A stretch of DNA of 64,000 bases from Oxalobacteraceae bacterium (GTDB lineage Bacteria; Pseudomonadota; Gammaproteobacteria; Burkholderiales; Burkholderiaceae_D): the NCBI GenBank assembly GCA_027490465.1, contig JAIXXZ010000086.1, positions 1 to 64,000 of the forward strand, read 5' to 3'. Below the pieces are notes generated by a model. It made no database searches, was not told the origin of the DNA, and worked only from the letters and a program-made list of their open reading frames with translations. Shown piece after piece: positions 22,618 through 32,632 of this stretch. The position numbers were made by a program, and so were the translations under genes. The stretch's first letter is position 1. Every line of letters begins with the position of its first letter.

Positions 22618-25600
22618 ATGCGCGGTTACATAGAATTCATCGTTCGTTTTCGCTGGGCCGTGCTCGCAGCGGTATTGATTGCCACTGTTTTCCTGCATTT
22701 CCGTGGACAGGCGCTGACCGTGATTATTGACCCCAACAATATCGTCCCGCGCTCGCATCCTTTCGTCGCCACCACACTCAAGGTCGAAGAAGTGTTCGGA
22801 TCGCGCTATGTCGGTGTGATCGGTATTACGCCGAAAAACGGCGATGTGTTCGATCCCAAGGTGCTGGAGAAAGTCCAGCGTATTACGGGCAAGCTGCGTG
22901 AAACACCGCGCGTGGTGAAAGCCAATCTGTTGTCAGTGTCGGCACGCCGCGCAAAGGATATACGCGGCACCGAAGAAGGCATGGAAGTGCGGCAGATGAT
23001 GACCGATGTGCCCACCACCCCCGAGCAGATGGCCGCGCTGAAAGATGCTTTGCAGCGGAACACGGCCTATATGAATTCGGTGGTTTCCAACGACTTCAAG
23101 ACGATTACCGTGCTCGCCGAAGTGCGTGACGCGACACCCGCAGAGCTGAAAGAAGGCAAAGGCGGATTCAGCTATGTCAACAAAAAGATCGAGGATATCG
23201 TCGCAGCCGAGCGCGATGATTCAGTGGATATTGTGGTGACTGGCTACCCGGCATTTCTTGCGCTGCTGGAGCAGTTCTCGGGACGCGGTGGTCTGCTATT
23301 GCTGATTGCGATTGGTGTGATCGGCATCATCCACTACGAAGCCTTCCGCACAATACAAGGGCTGATACTACCGCTGGTCACACCCATCGTTGCCGTGACC
23401 TGGGGCAAAGGCTTCATGGGACTGGCAGGTGTACCGCTGGATATCTTCAACATGTCAACGCCCATTCTGATTCTTGCCGTCGGTGCGGGACATGCGGTCC
23501 AGATGCTCAAGCGTTATTACGAAGAGTACAACCTGCTGCGCGCGAATCCCGCGCTCTCGCCGCGTGAAGCCAACCGCATGGCGGTAGTTGAATCGATCGT
23601 CAAGATCGGACCCGTGATGCTGACTGCTGGACTGGTCGCTGCCGCCGGTTTCCTGTCGCTGATGATCTTTGATATCGTCTCGATTCGAGTCTTCGGTATT
23701 TTTGCTGGCATCGGCATTCTGTCGGTGCTGGTCATTGAAATGACCTTCATTCCCGCACTGCGTGCCGTTCTGCCTCCACCCGGTGAGAAAGAGGCGCGCA
23801 TGGAGCGCGAAGAACGTGTGTGGGATCGCATCACCGGCTTTTATGCTGACCTGATGCTGGGTGAGAAGCGCTCACGTATCTTCATTGCCGCCGGCATCAT
23901 CGTTGCCGTTGCAATTGCAGGCATGACCCAGCTCAAAATCGAGAGCGCGCTGAAGAAGTACTTCGATCCCGATTTGCCACTGATGGTGGCAGACCAAAAG
24001 CTCAATGAGCGCATGGCCGGCACGAATAACATCTATCTGATGATCGAAGGCGATCAACCCGATGCGATCAAGGACCCGGCGGTTCTCAAGGCAATGGACG
24101 AATTGCAGACCTTCATCACGGCGCAGCCTAACATCGGCAAAGTGATTTCGATTTCCGAATTCATCAAGCGCATGAATCAGTCGATGAACGCGGACAAGCC
24201 CGAGTTCTTCCGCATTCCGGACCAGCAAGCGACGATTGCCGAGTATCTGCTGCTGTATTCGATGTCGGGAGAGCCAGGTGATTTCGATCCTTATGTCGAT
24301 TACGACTACAAGATGGCAAATATGGTCATCTTCACGCACAGCGACAGCACGTCAGATCTCCATCTGCTCTGGAAAGACATCCAGGGCTTTGTCGCGCAAA
24401 AATTTCCGCCCAATATACGCGTGAATATTGGTGGCAGCGTCGCTCAGAGCGCTGCAATCACTGAGGTCATCGTCAAGGACAAGATCCTGAACGTGGTGCA
24501 GATTGCCAGCGTGGTCTTCATCGCTGCAGCGCTGGTATTCCGTTCGCTGATTGCAGGCGTGCTGGTGGTGACACCTTTGCTGCTCTCGGTGCTGGTGAAT
24601 ATGGGGCTGATGGGCTGGCTCGGCATGCGCCTGAATGTACCTACTGCGCTGACCTCGGCGCTGGCGATCGGTATCGGTGCGGATTACGCGATCTACATGC
24701 TGTTCCGTCTGCGCGAGGAAATCGCGCGCGGCACCGATGTTGATGCTGCGTTCCGCAAGGTACTCAAGACAGCCGGCAAGGCCTGTCTGTTCGTGGCCTC
24801 GGCCGTCGCGGGTGGTTATGCGGTGCAGGCAGGTTCACGTGGCTACTACCCACACACCTGGAACGCCATCCTGATCGGCACCGCCATGTTAGTGAGCGTG
24901 ACAGCGGCATTAACAGTCATGCCAGCACTGGTACTGAAATTCCGACCTAAATTCATTTTTAATGGAGGTGATGTGAACACGACATCCGGAAACAAACGCG
25001 CGGGACTGGCTATGGTCGCCGCACTCGGTCTGAGCGCCCTTCTGATGGGCACCCTCCCCACTAAAGCCTGGGCGCTGTCGGCGACCGAAATCATGGACAA
25101 GAATTTCATGGTCGCGAAATACGCCGACTCCACTTCCGAGAGCACGATGACGCTGACGAACAAGTCGGGTCAGAAACGAGTTCGCAAGACCTTCGGCACG
25201 AGCAAGCTCGAGCCCAACGGCATCGATAACAAACGCATGACGCGCTTTCTGGAGCCTACCGATGTCAAAGGCACGGTCTCCATGCTGATCGAGCACACGG
25301 ACAAGGATGATGACATCTGGATCTATCTGCCCAGCGTGAAGAAAGTGCGGCGGCTGATTTCGTCGAACAAAAAAGACAGCTTTGTGGGCACTGATTTTTC
25401 TTACGGCGATGTGATCGGACACAAGGTCAAGGAGTGGACTCACACCATGCTCAAAGACGAAGAGGTCGATGGCACACCCTGCTTCGTGATCGAGTCCATA
25501 CCCAAGGACGGTACCATCAAAGCCAATACCGGCTATTCCAAGCGCATCGTCTGGATTCAGAAAGACAATTTCGTCACCTTGAAATCGGTCGCCTACGATG

Positions 25601-25800
25601 AGGCAGGTGAACTGCTCAAGGAAGCGCGCTACAAGCATTACAAGGAAGTCGATCCGGTCAAGAAAAAATGGCAGGCAGGTGTGCTCGAGGCGCGCAATCT
25701 GCAGACCGGCCACAGCACCGTCATCACTATCGACAACTTCAAAGTCAATATTGGCGTGAAGGATGATTACTTCACAACGCGCTACATGGAACAGCAGTAA
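22618..25800 (+). CDS. MMPL/RND-family transporter fused in frame to a C-terminal outer-membrane lipoprotein-sorting (LolA-like) protein
   Basis: RND multi-TM region to about residue 780; then signal-peptide-like VNTTSGNKRAGLAMVAALGLSALLMGTLPTKAWALS and an LolA-like domain (DDDIWIYLPSVKKVRRL). Confidence 0.8.
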   Translation: MRGYIEFIVRFRWAVLAAVLIATVFLHFRGQALTVIIDPNNIVPRSHPFVATTLKVEEVFGSRYVGVIGITPKNGDVFDPKVLEKVQRITGKLRETPRVVKANLLSVSARRAKDIRGTEEGMEVRQMMTDVPTTPEQMAALKDALQRNTAYMNSVVSNDFKTITVLAEVRDATPAELKEGKGGFSYVNKKIEDIVAAERDDSVDIVVTGYPAFLALLEQFSGRGGLLLLIAIGVIGIIHYEAFRTIQGLILPLVTPIVAVTWGKGFMGLAGVPLDIFNMSTPILILAVGAGHAVQMLKRYYEEYNLLRANPALSPREANRMAVVESIVKIGPVMLTAGLVAAAGFLSLMIFDIVSIRVFGIFAGIGILSVLVIEMTFIPALRAVLPPPGEKEARMEREERVWDRITGFYADLMLGEKRSRIFIAAGIIVAVAIAGMTQLKIESALKKYFDPDLPLMVADQKLNERMAGTNNIYLMIEGDQPDAIKDPAVLKAMDELQTFITAQPNIGKVISISEFIKRMNQSMNADKPEFFRIPDQQATIAEYLLLYSMSGEPGDFDPYVDYDYKMANMVIFTHSDSTSDLHLLWKDIQGFVAQKFPPNIRVNIGGSVAQSAAITEVIVKDKILNVVQIASVVFIAAALVFRSLIAGVLVVTPLLLSVLVNMGLMGWLGMRLNVPTALTSALAIGIGADYAIYMLFRLREEIARGTDVDAAFRKVLKTAGKACLFVASAVAGGYAVQAGSRGYYPHTWNAILIGTAMLVSVTAALTVMPALVLKFRPKFIFNGGDVNTTSGNKRAGLAMVAALGLSALLMGTLPTKAWALSATEIMDKNFMVAKYADSTSESTMTLTNKSGQKRVRKTFGTSKLEPNGIDNKRMTRFLEPTDVKGTVSMLIEHTDKDDDIWIYLPSVKKVRRLISSNKKDSFVGTDFSYGDVIGHKVKEWTHTMLKDEEVDGTPCFVIESIPKDGTIKANTGYSKRIVWIQKDNFVTLKSVAYDEAGELLKEARYKHYKEVDPVKKKWQAGVLEARNLQTGHSTVITIDNFKVNIGVKDDYFTTRYMEQQ
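24964..24975 (+). promoter_or_regulatory. internal Shine-Dalgarno (GGAGGTGAT) and in-frame GTG start for the LolA-like half
   Basis: GGAGGTGAT 24964-24972; GTG 24973-24975 is codon 786 of the long ORF. Confidence 0.6.
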
Positions 25801-27204
25801 ATGCGTGTGGTCCGTCGAAGTCATCAGTTATCCGCCAAACGGCCCCGGCTTTCCGGGGTCTCGATTTGTCTCTTTGCAGTACTGCTGGGCAGCGGGATAG
25901 GCTGCGCGAGTGCTCAGGACGCAGCTGCAACAGCGGCGCAACCGCGCGCCGAATCACGCAGTGATGCAAAAGAATCGCCGGACACCGCGAGCCAGAATAC
26001 GGTACCCGCTACTGCTCCCGATCTGGCGCCGGATTTGGCACCGCCCGATAACGCCGCTGACCAGCGCCCTGCTCTGCTCGGCAAACTGAATGCGCTCGGC
26101 CTGACAGGCTCGCTGCGTAGCGGTTACTGGTCTTCCAATCGCCTCTACGACGATCGCGGGAATATCGGTACTGCTTCGACCTGGCTGAAACTGGATAAAC
26201 GTTTCGAGAATGGGCTGGGCGTCTTCGCCGAAGCCTATGGTGGCCGCGAAGATTTTCGTAGTGATGGCAACGGCGTTACTCGAGTGCGCGAGGCGTACCT
26301 GGATGCACGTGCCGGCGCGCTGGATTTTCGTCTCGGTCAACAGATCATTGCGTGGGGCCGAGCCGACCGTCTTAACCCCACCGACAATCTCACACCGCGC
26401 GACAGTCGCTTGCTGGCGGCTGATGTTGACGAAGATCGTTTCGGATCGCTCGCCGCAAAAGCTTCGTGGAATCTGGATGCACATACCAGCCTGACAGGTG
26501 TATGGCTGCCTGAATTCCGCCCTAACCGTATCTTTCTGCGCTCTGGCTTTTCGGAAGTCATTCCAAATGGCTCGCGCAACTGGGCATTGAAGCTGGATCA
26601 GTCAGGCAAAGCAGTCGACTGGTCCGTGTCGTATTACGACGGGTACGATCTTTCGGGTGATCTCTCGGCATCCTATGTATTTCGACATTACCGCACCCGC
26701 GTGATCGGGTTCGATACGGCCACCACCCGTGGTGCCTGGCGCTTTGCGCTGGAATCGGCCTACACGCGTACCGAAGACCCCGACGGCACGCTGGCCTATG
26801 TGAAGAATCCCTTTGTTTACACCGTGCTGGGTATAGAGCGAGATTTCGGAAACAACACCAGCGGCATCGTGCAACTCTTCAATCGCCGGGTGATGCACCA
26901 TCAAACGCCCTCCGCTGCCGAACAACTGCATGCGATCCTGACCTCGCAGCTCGATCGCGATCAGAATGGCGTGAGTGTGCGTGTCGCAAAAAAATGGTGG
27001 AATGAAACGCTGGAAACCGAGCTGTCCGGTTCAGCGCTGCTGGAGCGCCGCGGTTACCTGATTCGTCCACGGCTAAGCTACGCGTGGAGCGATCAGATCA
27101 AGCTGCTGGCGGGTTACGAGTATTTTGATGGCAGCAGCAACACGCTGTATGGTCTGCTGAAACGCAATCGTTTGCTGTTTACTGAGCTGCGGTATTTTTT
27201 CTGA
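25801..27204 (+). CDS. predicted outer-membrane beta-barrel protein (DUF1302-like)
   Basis: signal sequence; alternating strands; AWGRADRLNPTDNLTPRD; C-terminal aromatic (LRYFF). Confidence 0.6.
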   Translation: MRVVRRSHQLSAKRPRLSGVSICLFAVLLGSGIGCASAQDAAATAAQPRAESRSDAKESPDTASQNTVPATAPDLAPDLAPPDNAADQRPALLGKLNALGLTGSLRSGYWSSNRLYDDRGNIGTASTWLKLDKRFENGLGVFAEAYGGREDFRSDGNGVTRVREAYLDARAGALDFRLGQQIIAWGRADRLNPTDNLTPRDSRLLAADVDEDRFGSLAAKASWNLDAHTSLTGVWLPEFRPNRIFLRSGFSEVIPNGSRNWALKLDQSGKAVDWSVSYYDGYDLSGDLSASYVFRHYRTRVIGFDTATTRGAWRFALESAYTRTEDPDGTLAYVKNPFVYTVLGIERDFGNNTSGIVQLFNRRVMHHQTPSAAEQLHAILTSQLDRDQNGVSVRVAKKWWNETLETELSGSALLERRGYLIRPRLSYAWSDQIKLLAGYEYFDGSSNTLYGLLKRNRLLFTELRYFF

Positions 27205-27228: not shown

Positions 27229-27570
27229 TCACACAATCATGAGCAATGCTTTCAGCTTTGCACGAACATCCCATAATTCGTGATCCTCCACACGCGCCTT
27301 GTGCTTTGCTCTTCGTGTGCGCCAGTCGAGTGATTTCACTTGATCCGTCAGTACAGCGCAGCGCGTACCATCCACTTCTGTTATCACCTCGAAGGGATGA
27401 CCTTTGACCTTCGTGCTGAGCGGACAACAAACCATCAAACCCGATTTCCCGTTGTAGGCAGCTGGACTGAGCACCAAGGCAGGGCGATGCCCCGCCTGCT
27501 CGTGCCCTGCCTGTGGATCGAATTCCAGCCAAACGATGTCACCCGAATCCGGAACATAACGTTTGACCAT
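27229..27570 (-). CDS. mazF: MazF endoribonuclease toxin
   Basis: YVPDSGDIVWLEFDPQAGHEQAGHRPALVLSPAAYN. Confidence 0.9.
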   Translation of the reverse strand: MVKRYVPDSGDIVWLEFDPQAGHEQAGHRPALVLSPAAYNGKSGLMVCCPLSTKVKGHPFEVITEVDGTRCAVLTDQVKSLDWRTRRAKHKARVEDHELWDVRAKLKALLMIV

Positions 27571-27812
27571 TACCAGGTTTCCTTACCCACTGGTTTACCA
27601 AAATCAGATTCCGCATGGGTGTTACGAGGATTGATACCAGCAACCAGGTCTTCCAATTTGTATTCTTTACGAGTCGCAGGCTCGATAATAATTTTGCCGC
27701 GCGATACTTTGACAGAGACCTTTTGATCCATTACCAGATGCGCTTCTTTCATCACGCTGGCACTCAATCTGAGTGCAGGACTATTACCCCATTTTTTAAT
27801 CACGGCTTCCAT
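27570..27812 (-). CDS. mazE: MazE antitoxin
   Basis: MEAVIKKWGNSPALRLSASVMKEA; coupled to mazF. Confidence 0.9.
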   Translation of the reverse strand: MEAVIKKWGNSPALRLSASVMKEAHLVMDQKVSVKVSRGKIIIEPATRKEYKLEDLVAGINPRNTHAESDFGKPVGKETW

Positions 27813-27822
27813 AACGAACCTC

Positions 27823-27851
27823 CTTTTGTTTCTACATTGTAGATACAAAAG
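27823..27851. promoter_or_regulatory. near-perfect inverted repeat upstream of mazE (autoregulatory operator candidate)
   Basis: CTTTTGTTTCTACA-T-TGTAGATACAAAAG, 13/14 arm match. Confidence 0.6.
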
Positions 27852-29873: not shown

Positions 29874-30617
29874 TCAGGGAACCAGATTAATCGGCAGACA
29901 GAGCTGGTAACCCACACCCCAGACTGACTTAATGGCAGGTTCTGCATCATCCGATTGGGCTGAGCGAATTTTCTTGCGCAAACGGGCGACCAATTCCTCG
30001 AGGGCGTGCTTGCTGATGATCTCGTCAGCAGTCTGCCCTGTGCACACATCACATAAAGTGGCTGAATCCAAGGTGTTGTCCTGCACCTGCACGAGCGCCA
30101 CCAGCAGTATCTTCTCGCGCATCGTCAAACGCAGCACAGAAGATAAACCGGGGCCCTGCAAGGTACGTTGTCTGAGACTCAGTGACAGCGCATGGTCGTC
30201 CTGTGCAGGCTTGACGCGCCGGCCCAGACTGCGAAGTATCATCACCAGCTCATCAGGTATGACAGGCTTGGTGAGATATACATCAGCCCCGCCGACACCA
30301 TAGCCTGCGATGCGATCATTCAGCGTCACTCTGGCCGTCATGATCACGATGCCGGCATCCGGCAAAGTTTGCCGCAAGCGATTGGAGAGACTCAGCCCAT
30401 CTTCACCTGGCAAATTAAGATCGATGACGAAGATATCCACTGGCCTATGGGTAATAAGATCATCCAGCGCACGCGCGGAATTGACCGCATTGACCAGAAA
30501 TCCATGACTGCTCAGGTGATCGCTCACCTCTGCACGCAGTAACTCGTCATCTTCGACGAGCGCAATCGACATGGTGGGTTGTGGCGACATGATCTTGACC
30601 AGCTGTTGATTTTTCAA
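29874..30617 (-). CDS. response regulator, receiver plus winged-helix output domain
   Basis: FVIDLNLPGEDGLSLSNRLRQ; similar to 4030..4734(-). Confidence 0.85.
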   Translation of the reverse strand: MKNQQLVKIMSPQPTMSIALVEDDELLRAEVSDHLSSHGFLVNAVNSARALDDLITHRPVDIFVIDLNLPGEDGLSLSNRLRQTLPDAGIVIMTARVTLNDRIAGYGVGGADVYLTKPVIPDELVMILRSLGRRVKPAQDDHALSLSLRQRTLQGPGLSSVLRLTMREKILLVALVQVQDNTLDSATLCDVCTGQTADEIISKHALEELVARLRKKIRSAQSDDAEPAIKSVWGVGYQLCLPINLVP

Positions 30618-32632
30618 TTGGGAACCCTGACGGTAAATGTAACTGTATCGCGCGCATGCCGAAAATCGACACTCGCACCAATCTTTGCAGCCGCCGCCTT
30701 GACAAGGCTGAGCCCCAGCCCCATGCCCGGCACGGCCATGGAATTGGGATGTCGGTAATACCTCTCAAAGACCCGGTCTTGGTCAGGCATCCCAAAGGTA
30801 CCTACGGCATTACTGATCTCGAAACACACCCAATCAGTCTCAGTTGCAGTTGGCACGGTAACGATTGAATCTGCCGGTGATGCGCTGCCTGTAGGCTTGA
30901 CTGTGATCGCGACATCGCCGCCGGCATGACCGTATTTGTAGGCATTATTGATGAGATTGCCAAAAATAACGGTCAACATCTCCCGGTCTGCAGTGAAGAC
31001 CGCGTTCGCCTCGACCTTGACGTGAAACCTGCTTTGATCGGTGTAAGTTTCGGTCAATTCTTCGATCAGTTCTGCTGCAGGAGAAATCATCACGGACGGC
31101 AAGGACTCATAGCGATCCAAGCGCGCTGAAACTGCGACGTGCTCGATCAGACTGTTCATGCGATTCACGCACTGATCGATGTGTCGCAGTTTCTGCGTGG
31201 CCGTCTGATTGTCTTGCAGTTGCTCTTTCAGAGCTCTTGAGGCGAACGTGATCGTCCCCAGAGGATTTTTAAGATCATGGGTGAGCAGGTCGATCATGGT
31301 ATTCCGGTCGGACAGCAAGGCCGCATAAGAATCTGCCTCGATTCGGTCAATACGGATTTGATTGAGCTCTTCTGCCTTGAGTTTCTCCCTGTGCTCTTCT
31401 TCAAACTTGATCAGCAAGAAGATAACGGCACCCACCATCAATCCATTCAGACGCCAGTCCGAAATGTTCTGAATCGGCCCAACAAAACCGTTGAAAAGAG
31501 AGAAAAACAGGCCTCCCACCACTGTCGGAAGCAGAACCACATAGAACAAGAAGAATGAAACGAAAAACAATATCCTGACATTTTTGATCATCCCCTTGGA
31601 TTTAGCCACACCAAAGATGTGTATTGCGGGATAAATCGAAAAGATGACCAGATTCAAACGGATTGAGAAATTCTTGTAGTCAGTAAAGAATAGTGCGCAA
31701 TTCAGTACACAGATCACCAGGATGGCGTAGACCATCGCGACATAGAATCTTGAATCACAATAAGATTTGACCACGACAAAAATCGTCAGTATCGAAAAAA
31801 AACTTCGGAGGATGAACATCACATGCGGCAAGGCATCCAGCAGCACGGGAGACCACGACGGAAACCATATTGACGGAAATCCGTAGATACTCAGAAGATA
31901 AACAAAGATACTGGCTTGAACCCCGGCAAAACAAACCGTCATACTCGATTGATACTTCACCACCCAAAAAACACCAATAGCCAGCAAGACGCTGGCCAGT
32001 GTCAAGGAAATAAAAATACGCTTTATCCGATTGCCGGTAACTGCGGCAAGGTTTTCCAAAGTCACGACATCCGTATCCAGTATCAGAAAATTCGTCGTCT
32101 GGATTTTGAGATAAATGATGGTTGAAGGCGATGCACTCTCACGCAAATTGACGCAGTAGTAATCATCGGCGCATGATTTCTCTTTCTGTGGAAACATGTC
32201 GCCTATCGTCTGTATCTGCCACTGGCCGCGGTCAAACTCGTAGACCTCGATCAGATCGGCGTCATGCGGCCCAACACGCAGAATCATCTGCTGTGTCCCA
32301 TCATTAGCCGCTGAAGAATCCAGCGATGGGACGATGCGCATTCTCACCCAGATGGGTGCCGCCTGATAGCCGAGATTCAATCGCTTTTCAAAAGGTTTAA
32401 ATGGTGCCCCTTCGACCGAATTGATATCAAATTGAAATTTGCTGTCGATGAAGAAGGACTGCTCAACGGCGGGTTCGTTCGATGCCATTGCGGCACTTAC
32501 GCTGCACAGCCAGAAACATAAGCACAAAACATAACCAAGCCGCCCCAGCCAGCGAGCATCACCGAAAACAGTCGCGGGATAAGATCTATGGTTCAACACG
32601 TTGAAGACAGTAAGGGTCGCGTCAATCGCCAC
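30614..32632 (-). CDS. sensor histidine kinase with 7TMR-DISM sensory region
   Basis: H-box LTHDLKNPLGT; GMGLGLSLVK; N-terminal periplasmic plus multi-TM region. Confidence 0.85.
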   Translation of the reverse strand: MAIDATLTVFNVLNHRSYPATVFGDARWLGRLGYVLCLCFWLCSVSAAMASNEPAVEQSFFIDSKFQFDINSVEGAPFKPFEKRLNLGYQAAPIWVRMRIVPSLDSSAANDGTQQMILRVGPHDADLIEVYEFDRGQWQIQTIGDMFPQKEKSCADDYYCVNLRESASPSTIIYLKIQTTNFLILDTDVVTLENLAAVTGNRIKRIFISLTLASVLLAIGVFWVVKYQSSMTVCFAGVQASIFVYLLSIYGFPSIWFPSWSPVLLDALPHVMFILRSFFSILTIFVVVKSYCDSRFYVAMVYAILVICVLNCALFFTDYKNFSIRLNLVIFSIYPAIHIFGVAKSKGMIKNVRILFFVSFFLFYVVLLPTVVGGLFFSLFNGFVGPIQNISDWRLNGLMVGAVIFLLIKFEEEHREKLKAEELNQIRIDRIEADSYAALLSDRNTMIDLLTHDLKNPLGTITFASRALKEQLQDNQTATQKLRHIDQCVNRMNSLIEHVAVSARLDRYESLPSVMISPAAELIEELTETYTDQSRFHVKVEANAVFTADREMLTVIFGNLINNAYKYGHAGGDVAITVKPTGSASPADSIVTVPTATETDWVCFEISNAVGTFGMPDQDRVFERYYRHPNSMAVPGMGLGLSLVKAAAAKIGASVDFRHARDTVTFTVRVPN

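Follow-up and report, generated by a model that had tools for sequence, protein, structure and literature searches.

An MMPL/RND transporter and a LolA-like protein share one reading frame across a predicted internal signal peptide

We analysed a 64,000-nucleotide stretch of DNA from an Oxalobacteraceae bacterium (contig JAIXXZ010000086.1; hereafter the window) and found that one of its genes encodes both an MMPL/RND transporter and a LolA-like protein, in a single frame of 1,060 codons that has no internal stop across 22618–25800 (+). The same fused frame is conserved in relatives, some of which retain a signal-peptidase motif at the junction and others of which also retain a ribosome-binding site and start codon there. 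On this comparison we think that the gene probably encodes a transporter–carrier polyprotein processed by signal peptidase, which in this lineage would also use an internal start to make additional carrier.

The window gene and its seam

The frame comprises an MMPL/RND part (residues 1–785; 22618–24972), a predicted signal peptide (residues 786–819; 24973–25074) and a predicted mature LolA-like periplasmic protein (residues 820–1060; 25075–25797), all on the + strand. A Pfam scan of the 1,060-aa protein placed two MMPL matches in the first part (PF03176, 171 bits against a cut-off of 20.5) and LolA_like PF17131 at residues 870–1059 (E 3e-58; 197 bits against a cut-off of 30). The top-scoring transporter family was TIGR00921, the HAE3 family, at 234 bits against an NCBIfam cut-off of 351.9; on its sequence the transporter is HAE3-like, and we do not file it as an HAE3 member. 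The transporter model matched the folds of MmpL4/5, MmpL3, HpnN and NPC1, and the carrier has solved relatives in the PDB (9tp6, 3bk5 and 4z48).

The seam reads FRPKFIF-NGGD-VNTTSGNKRAGLAMVAALGLSALLMGTLPTKAWA|LS. FRPKFIF (24940–24960) is the conserved end of the transporter, with R-P-x-F-x-F invariant in all 16 fused sequences of alignment A1. RND transporters have 12 membrane helices; with 12 helices in the RND part this C terminus should face the cytoplasm, and the next hydrophobic stretch would then be oriented like an ordinary signal peptide. Between the two lies a Shine–Dalgarno site, GGAGGTGAT (24964–24972, with GGAGG at 24964–24968), which the long frame translates as G-G-D and which is followed by an in-frame GTG (V786; 24973–24975). 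The predicted signal peptide, V786–A819, ends in a signal peptidase I type site, AWA|LS. The duplex energy of the Shine–Dalgarno site is −9.9; synonymous recodings average −6.1, and 5.6% of them are as strong. RNA structure at the internal start was unremarkable (z 0.37), and no promoter or terminator was found at the seam on the + strand. The frame and Pfam matches thus bear out the initial annotation, made from the letters alone, of a 1,060-aa open reading frame joining an MMPL/RND transporter to a LolA-like protein without a stop, and the GGAGGTGAT site, the GTG at 24973 and the signal peptide ending AWA|LS that it described at the junction are all where it had placed them.

Three states of the junction

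For comparison we collected 58 distinct loci containing both parts, with duplicates removed, by searching related genomes at the protein level, scanning named genome contigs and running profile searches for the order, the class and individual phyla; this is a collected set and not a random sample. The frame is fused in 38 of these loci, which occur in Burkholderiales, Gallionella/Nitrotoga, Bdellovibrionota, Nitrospinota and one gammaproteobacterium, with Gallionella, Nitrotoga, Bdellovibrionota and Nitrospinota contributed by the named-contig scan. We distinguish three states: split (class A, 20/58), fused with an internal Shine–Dalgarno site and an ATG or GTG start (class B, 23/58, including the window), and fused without an internal start, that is, with no ATG, GTG or TTG accompanied by a Shine–Dalgarno site (class C, 15/58; Nitrospinota, the Burkholderiales family f29 and others). 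Within the window's genus, three other metagenome-assembled genomes (MAGs) have the single fused frame at 96, 95 and 90% identity, and in two genomes the parts are separate genes. The single frame is also found in more distant families. The distant MMPL/LolA neighbours looked at from the class-level search were split.

A lost base, through assembly or sequencing error, could have merged two ordinary neighbouring genes, and a single base does separate the two states in the window's genus: in split loci such as L066 the seam is GGAGAGTGATGTGA, with the stop restored, whereas the window has GGAG-GTGATGTGA. The initial annotation had named just such a missing base as grounds for doubt. The one-base difference is real, but it does not make the window fusion an artefact, since four different genomes of the genus share the fused form. 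The open frame also recurs in independent assemblies with other seam sequences (the seam of L048, GGAGCTAACGTG, differs from that of the window and is still open) and in other phyla. Conservation of the fused frame, in a layout that recurs in several bacterial phyla, rules out sequencing error in the window, and we regard error of either kind as extremely improbable. The junction comparison likewise disposes of the proposition, also raised in the initial annotation, that orthologues are always separate.

In class B, the internal start appears to be maintained. All 22 core class-B loci have an ATG or GTG 2–6 codons beyond the aligned end of the transporter, with a duplex energy to the anti-Shine–Dalgarno sequence of −5.6 or lower at every one of them; the best class-C candidate reaches −4.1. 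When the upstream codons were recoded synonymously with each gene's own codon usage, the mean energy over 22 class-B loci was −3.2, compared with −7.4 observed. Single-locus fractions ranged from 0.009 to 0.34, and the combined p of 4e-10 overstates the case because the loci are related. The start residue is only ever M (ATG) or V, and valine is encoded by GTG in 11 of 11 cases, although GTG makes up 27–57% of valine codons in those genes. Columns containing exactly M and V number 2 of 1,046 in a 17-row alignment, the start column being one of the two. The split relatives start at the same position. That both the start codon and the ribosome site are constrained across 22 fused loci lends support to internal initiation in class B.

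In class C, rare start codons aside, the carrier could be produced only within the fusion. All 15 class-C loci nevertheless retain A-x-[AS] in the segment that separates the hydrophobic stretch from the carrier, a pattern found in 21 of 244 other hydrophobic segments of the same proteins (about 9%) and in 26% of arbitrary 19-residue windows. The strict pattern is present in 13/17 class-A and 15/22 class-B loci, and most of the remainder carry SWA, GWA, VYA, SYA or the like, sites that signal peptidase also accepts. The retention of a signal-peptidase motif in 15 fused loci without an internal start supports cleavage of a polyprotein. Net charge ahead of the hydrophobic stretch is −1 to −4 in all five Nitrospinota rows, compared with 0 to +4 in classes A and B. 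These rows thus lack the positive charge that usually precedes a free-standing signal peptide; such a loss fits what may be expected where the segment no longer acts as a free-standing signal peptide.

The search of the Bdellovibrionota phylum also gave a distant MMPL/LolA homologue, L149 (G883), in which a single frame contains GAAAGGAG and an ATG in frame; it is apparently a separate and independent fusion of the class-B type. Genome G046 contains two diverged fused copies (L037 and L014/L039), both class B. In the distant homologues L108, L109, L110, L112, L113, L121 and L157 the carrier lies in the transporter's frame with an in-frame stop between them. The LolA-like match of L067 (a Limnobacter MAG) and the MMPL match of L065 (a Nitrospinota MAG) are each spread over two frames, through frameshift or assembly error.

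Proposed processing, alternatives and history

The initial annotation had offered two options, a fusion made alongside a separate secreted protein or a polyprotein cut at the signal peptide; elements of both now find comparative support, in the class-B constraint and the class-C motif. On the reading that we favour, the hydrophobic stretch, oriented like a signal peptide, would be the 13th segment to enter the Sec channel. Signal peptidase I could then cut after AWA to free a LolA-like carrier of about 27 kDa into the periplasm beside its pump. At class-B seams, the ribosome-binding site and start (GTG in the window) would allow extra carrier to be made alone from the same mRNA.

Two other readings accept the fused frame. 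Internal initiation alone may give the functional carrier, with the missing stop neutral and read-through yielding a little unused fusion. Class B clearly maintains the Shine–Dalgarno site and start, the start coincides with that of the split relatives, and fused and split forms within that genus of the window are one base apart. However, class-C fusions lacking such a start still keep the cleavage motif and an intact carrier domain, and the fusion is reconstructed as ancestral and persists across phyla, unlike a neutral missing stop; we therefore consider this reading unlikely. Less likely still is an uncut fusion, in which the internal segment would be a 13th membrane helix tethering the LolA-like domain to the pump as a permanent periplasmic subunit. 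A single chain guarantees 1:1 stoichiometry and is found in many lineages, and several class-C hydrophobic stretches are 18–22 residues long. Against tethering, A-x-[AS] is retained throughout class C, and in split relatives the carrier is a secreted protein of its own, so that a tether is not generally needed.

Some points also count against a processed polyprotein with an additional internal start. Rare start codons may serve in class C, the aligned rows are related by descent and the tests on them are not independent, and elongating ribosomes may suppress internal initiation. AlphaFold2 left seam residues 783–820 unmodelled (predicted local distance difference test score <50), which gives the 13th segment no structural support.

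On a tree of 55 rows there are 10 state changes, with classes A and B interleaved and class C on deep branches. Two-state models reconstruct the core ancestor as fused with a probability of 0.86–0.92, and the equal-rates two-state model gives at least 0.94 over 40 bootstrap trees. Three-state models place class C as ancestral (0.84–0.95), with two changes from C to B and five or six from B to A. For the genus group that includes the window gene, the ancestral state is ambiguous (0.18–0.46 fused in two-state models, 0.99 class B in the three-state unequal-rates model). The reconstruction is limited by long branches and horizontal transfer, and a single split outgroup row sets its root; as it stands, it favours a fused ancestor followed by gain of internal starts and then by splits. 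We tentatively suggest, at somewhat less than even confidence, that what we see in this family is an ancient polyprotein, processed by signal peptidase, in stepwise fission. Class C would be the ancestral state, the internal start would have arisen at least twice (in Betaproteobacteria and Bdellovibrionota) while the frame stayed open, and later, repeated breaks of the frame would have given two overlapping genes. Class B, to which the window gene belongs, would be a long-lived intermediate that obtains its carrier by two routes.

Operon layout and known systems

Directly downstream of the window gene is a DUF1302 gene resembling an outer-membrane barrel (25801–27204, +), whose ATG immediately follows the TAA of the fusion (PF06980, 32.1 bits against a cut-off of 23.2). 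A DUF1302-type barrel gene occupies this position in 53 of the 58 loci, the other five being short contigs or distant or broken loci. The carrier and the barrel would together receive a hydrophobic substrate from the pump and take it across the periplasm. Other neighbours in the window include a nitroreductase gene and, directly after the DUF1302 gene, a PemK/MazF-like toxin gene (27229–27848, −). Its small MazE-like upstream partner was named by eye, with only a weak SymE match in Pfam. Adjacent genes for a response regulator and a 7TMR-DISMED2 histidine kinase lie at 29874–32632 (−).

The fused domain architecture is already in the literature. In Thalassolituus oleivorans MIL-1, TOL_3187 and TOL_3188 were both 42-fold more abundant as proteins on the n-C28 alkane, and on n-C28 only (PMC6304351). 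TOL_3187 has the same domain content as the window fusion and TOL_3188 is the same porin-like neighbour; the paper gives the domain content only, and a search of its text for 'signal peptide' found no occurrence. In the limited literature searched, we found no description of the junction anatomy or of the A/B/C series, and nothing useful on MMPL–LolA junctions or on gene fission with internal starts; both the anatomy and the series appear to be undescribed.

AmeABCD of Castellaniella defragrans combines an HAE3 RND pump with DUF1302, DUF1329/LolA-superfamily and COG4447 proteins, and its role in the efflux of hydrophobic substrates is backed by deletion (PMC6394551). Its HAE3-type pump, its DUF1302 protein of the outer membrane and its periplasmic protein of the LolA superfamily all have counterparts in the window locus. 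AmeABCD differs in having four separate genes, a 451-aa DUF1329 carrier and the extra AmeC protein; the window locus has neither a separate DUF1329 gene nor AmeC (COG4447), its carrier being fused to the pump. The hopanoid transporter HpnN and the sterol transporter BstA share the RND fold and move hydrophobic lipids. The window protein matches their NCBIfam models in part, and HpnN in fold, but falls far below the equivalog cut-offs (82 and 27 bits against 752 and 1,400), and HpnN functions without a dedicated periplasmic partner (PMC6394551). From the n-C28 response in Thalassolituus and the kinship with AmeABCD, we infer that a hydrophobic substrate is likely.

Few bacterial polyproteins are known to carry an internal signal peptide, and genes are seldom caught partway through fusion or fission. 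In this family the three stages occur side by side and share an operon layout, so that the order of steps, and the use of an internal start as against cleavage, lend themselves to comparison among natural variants. For annotation, the family is a warning that a carrier can hide inside a 'transporter' gene call. The closest parallel in mechanism is the fbcH cytochrome b/c1 polyprotein of Bradyrhizobium, in which a polytopic membrane protein with a cytoplasmic C terminus is followed by an internal signal peptide and a periplasmic partner, and signal peptidase makes the cut; we know of no internal ribosome-binding site described for it. The window gene combines the same features, namely one frame, a C terminus expected from RND family knowledge to be cytoplasmic and a predicted internal signal peptide with A-x-A, and the mechanism proposed here would be the same in principle, in unrelated proteins.
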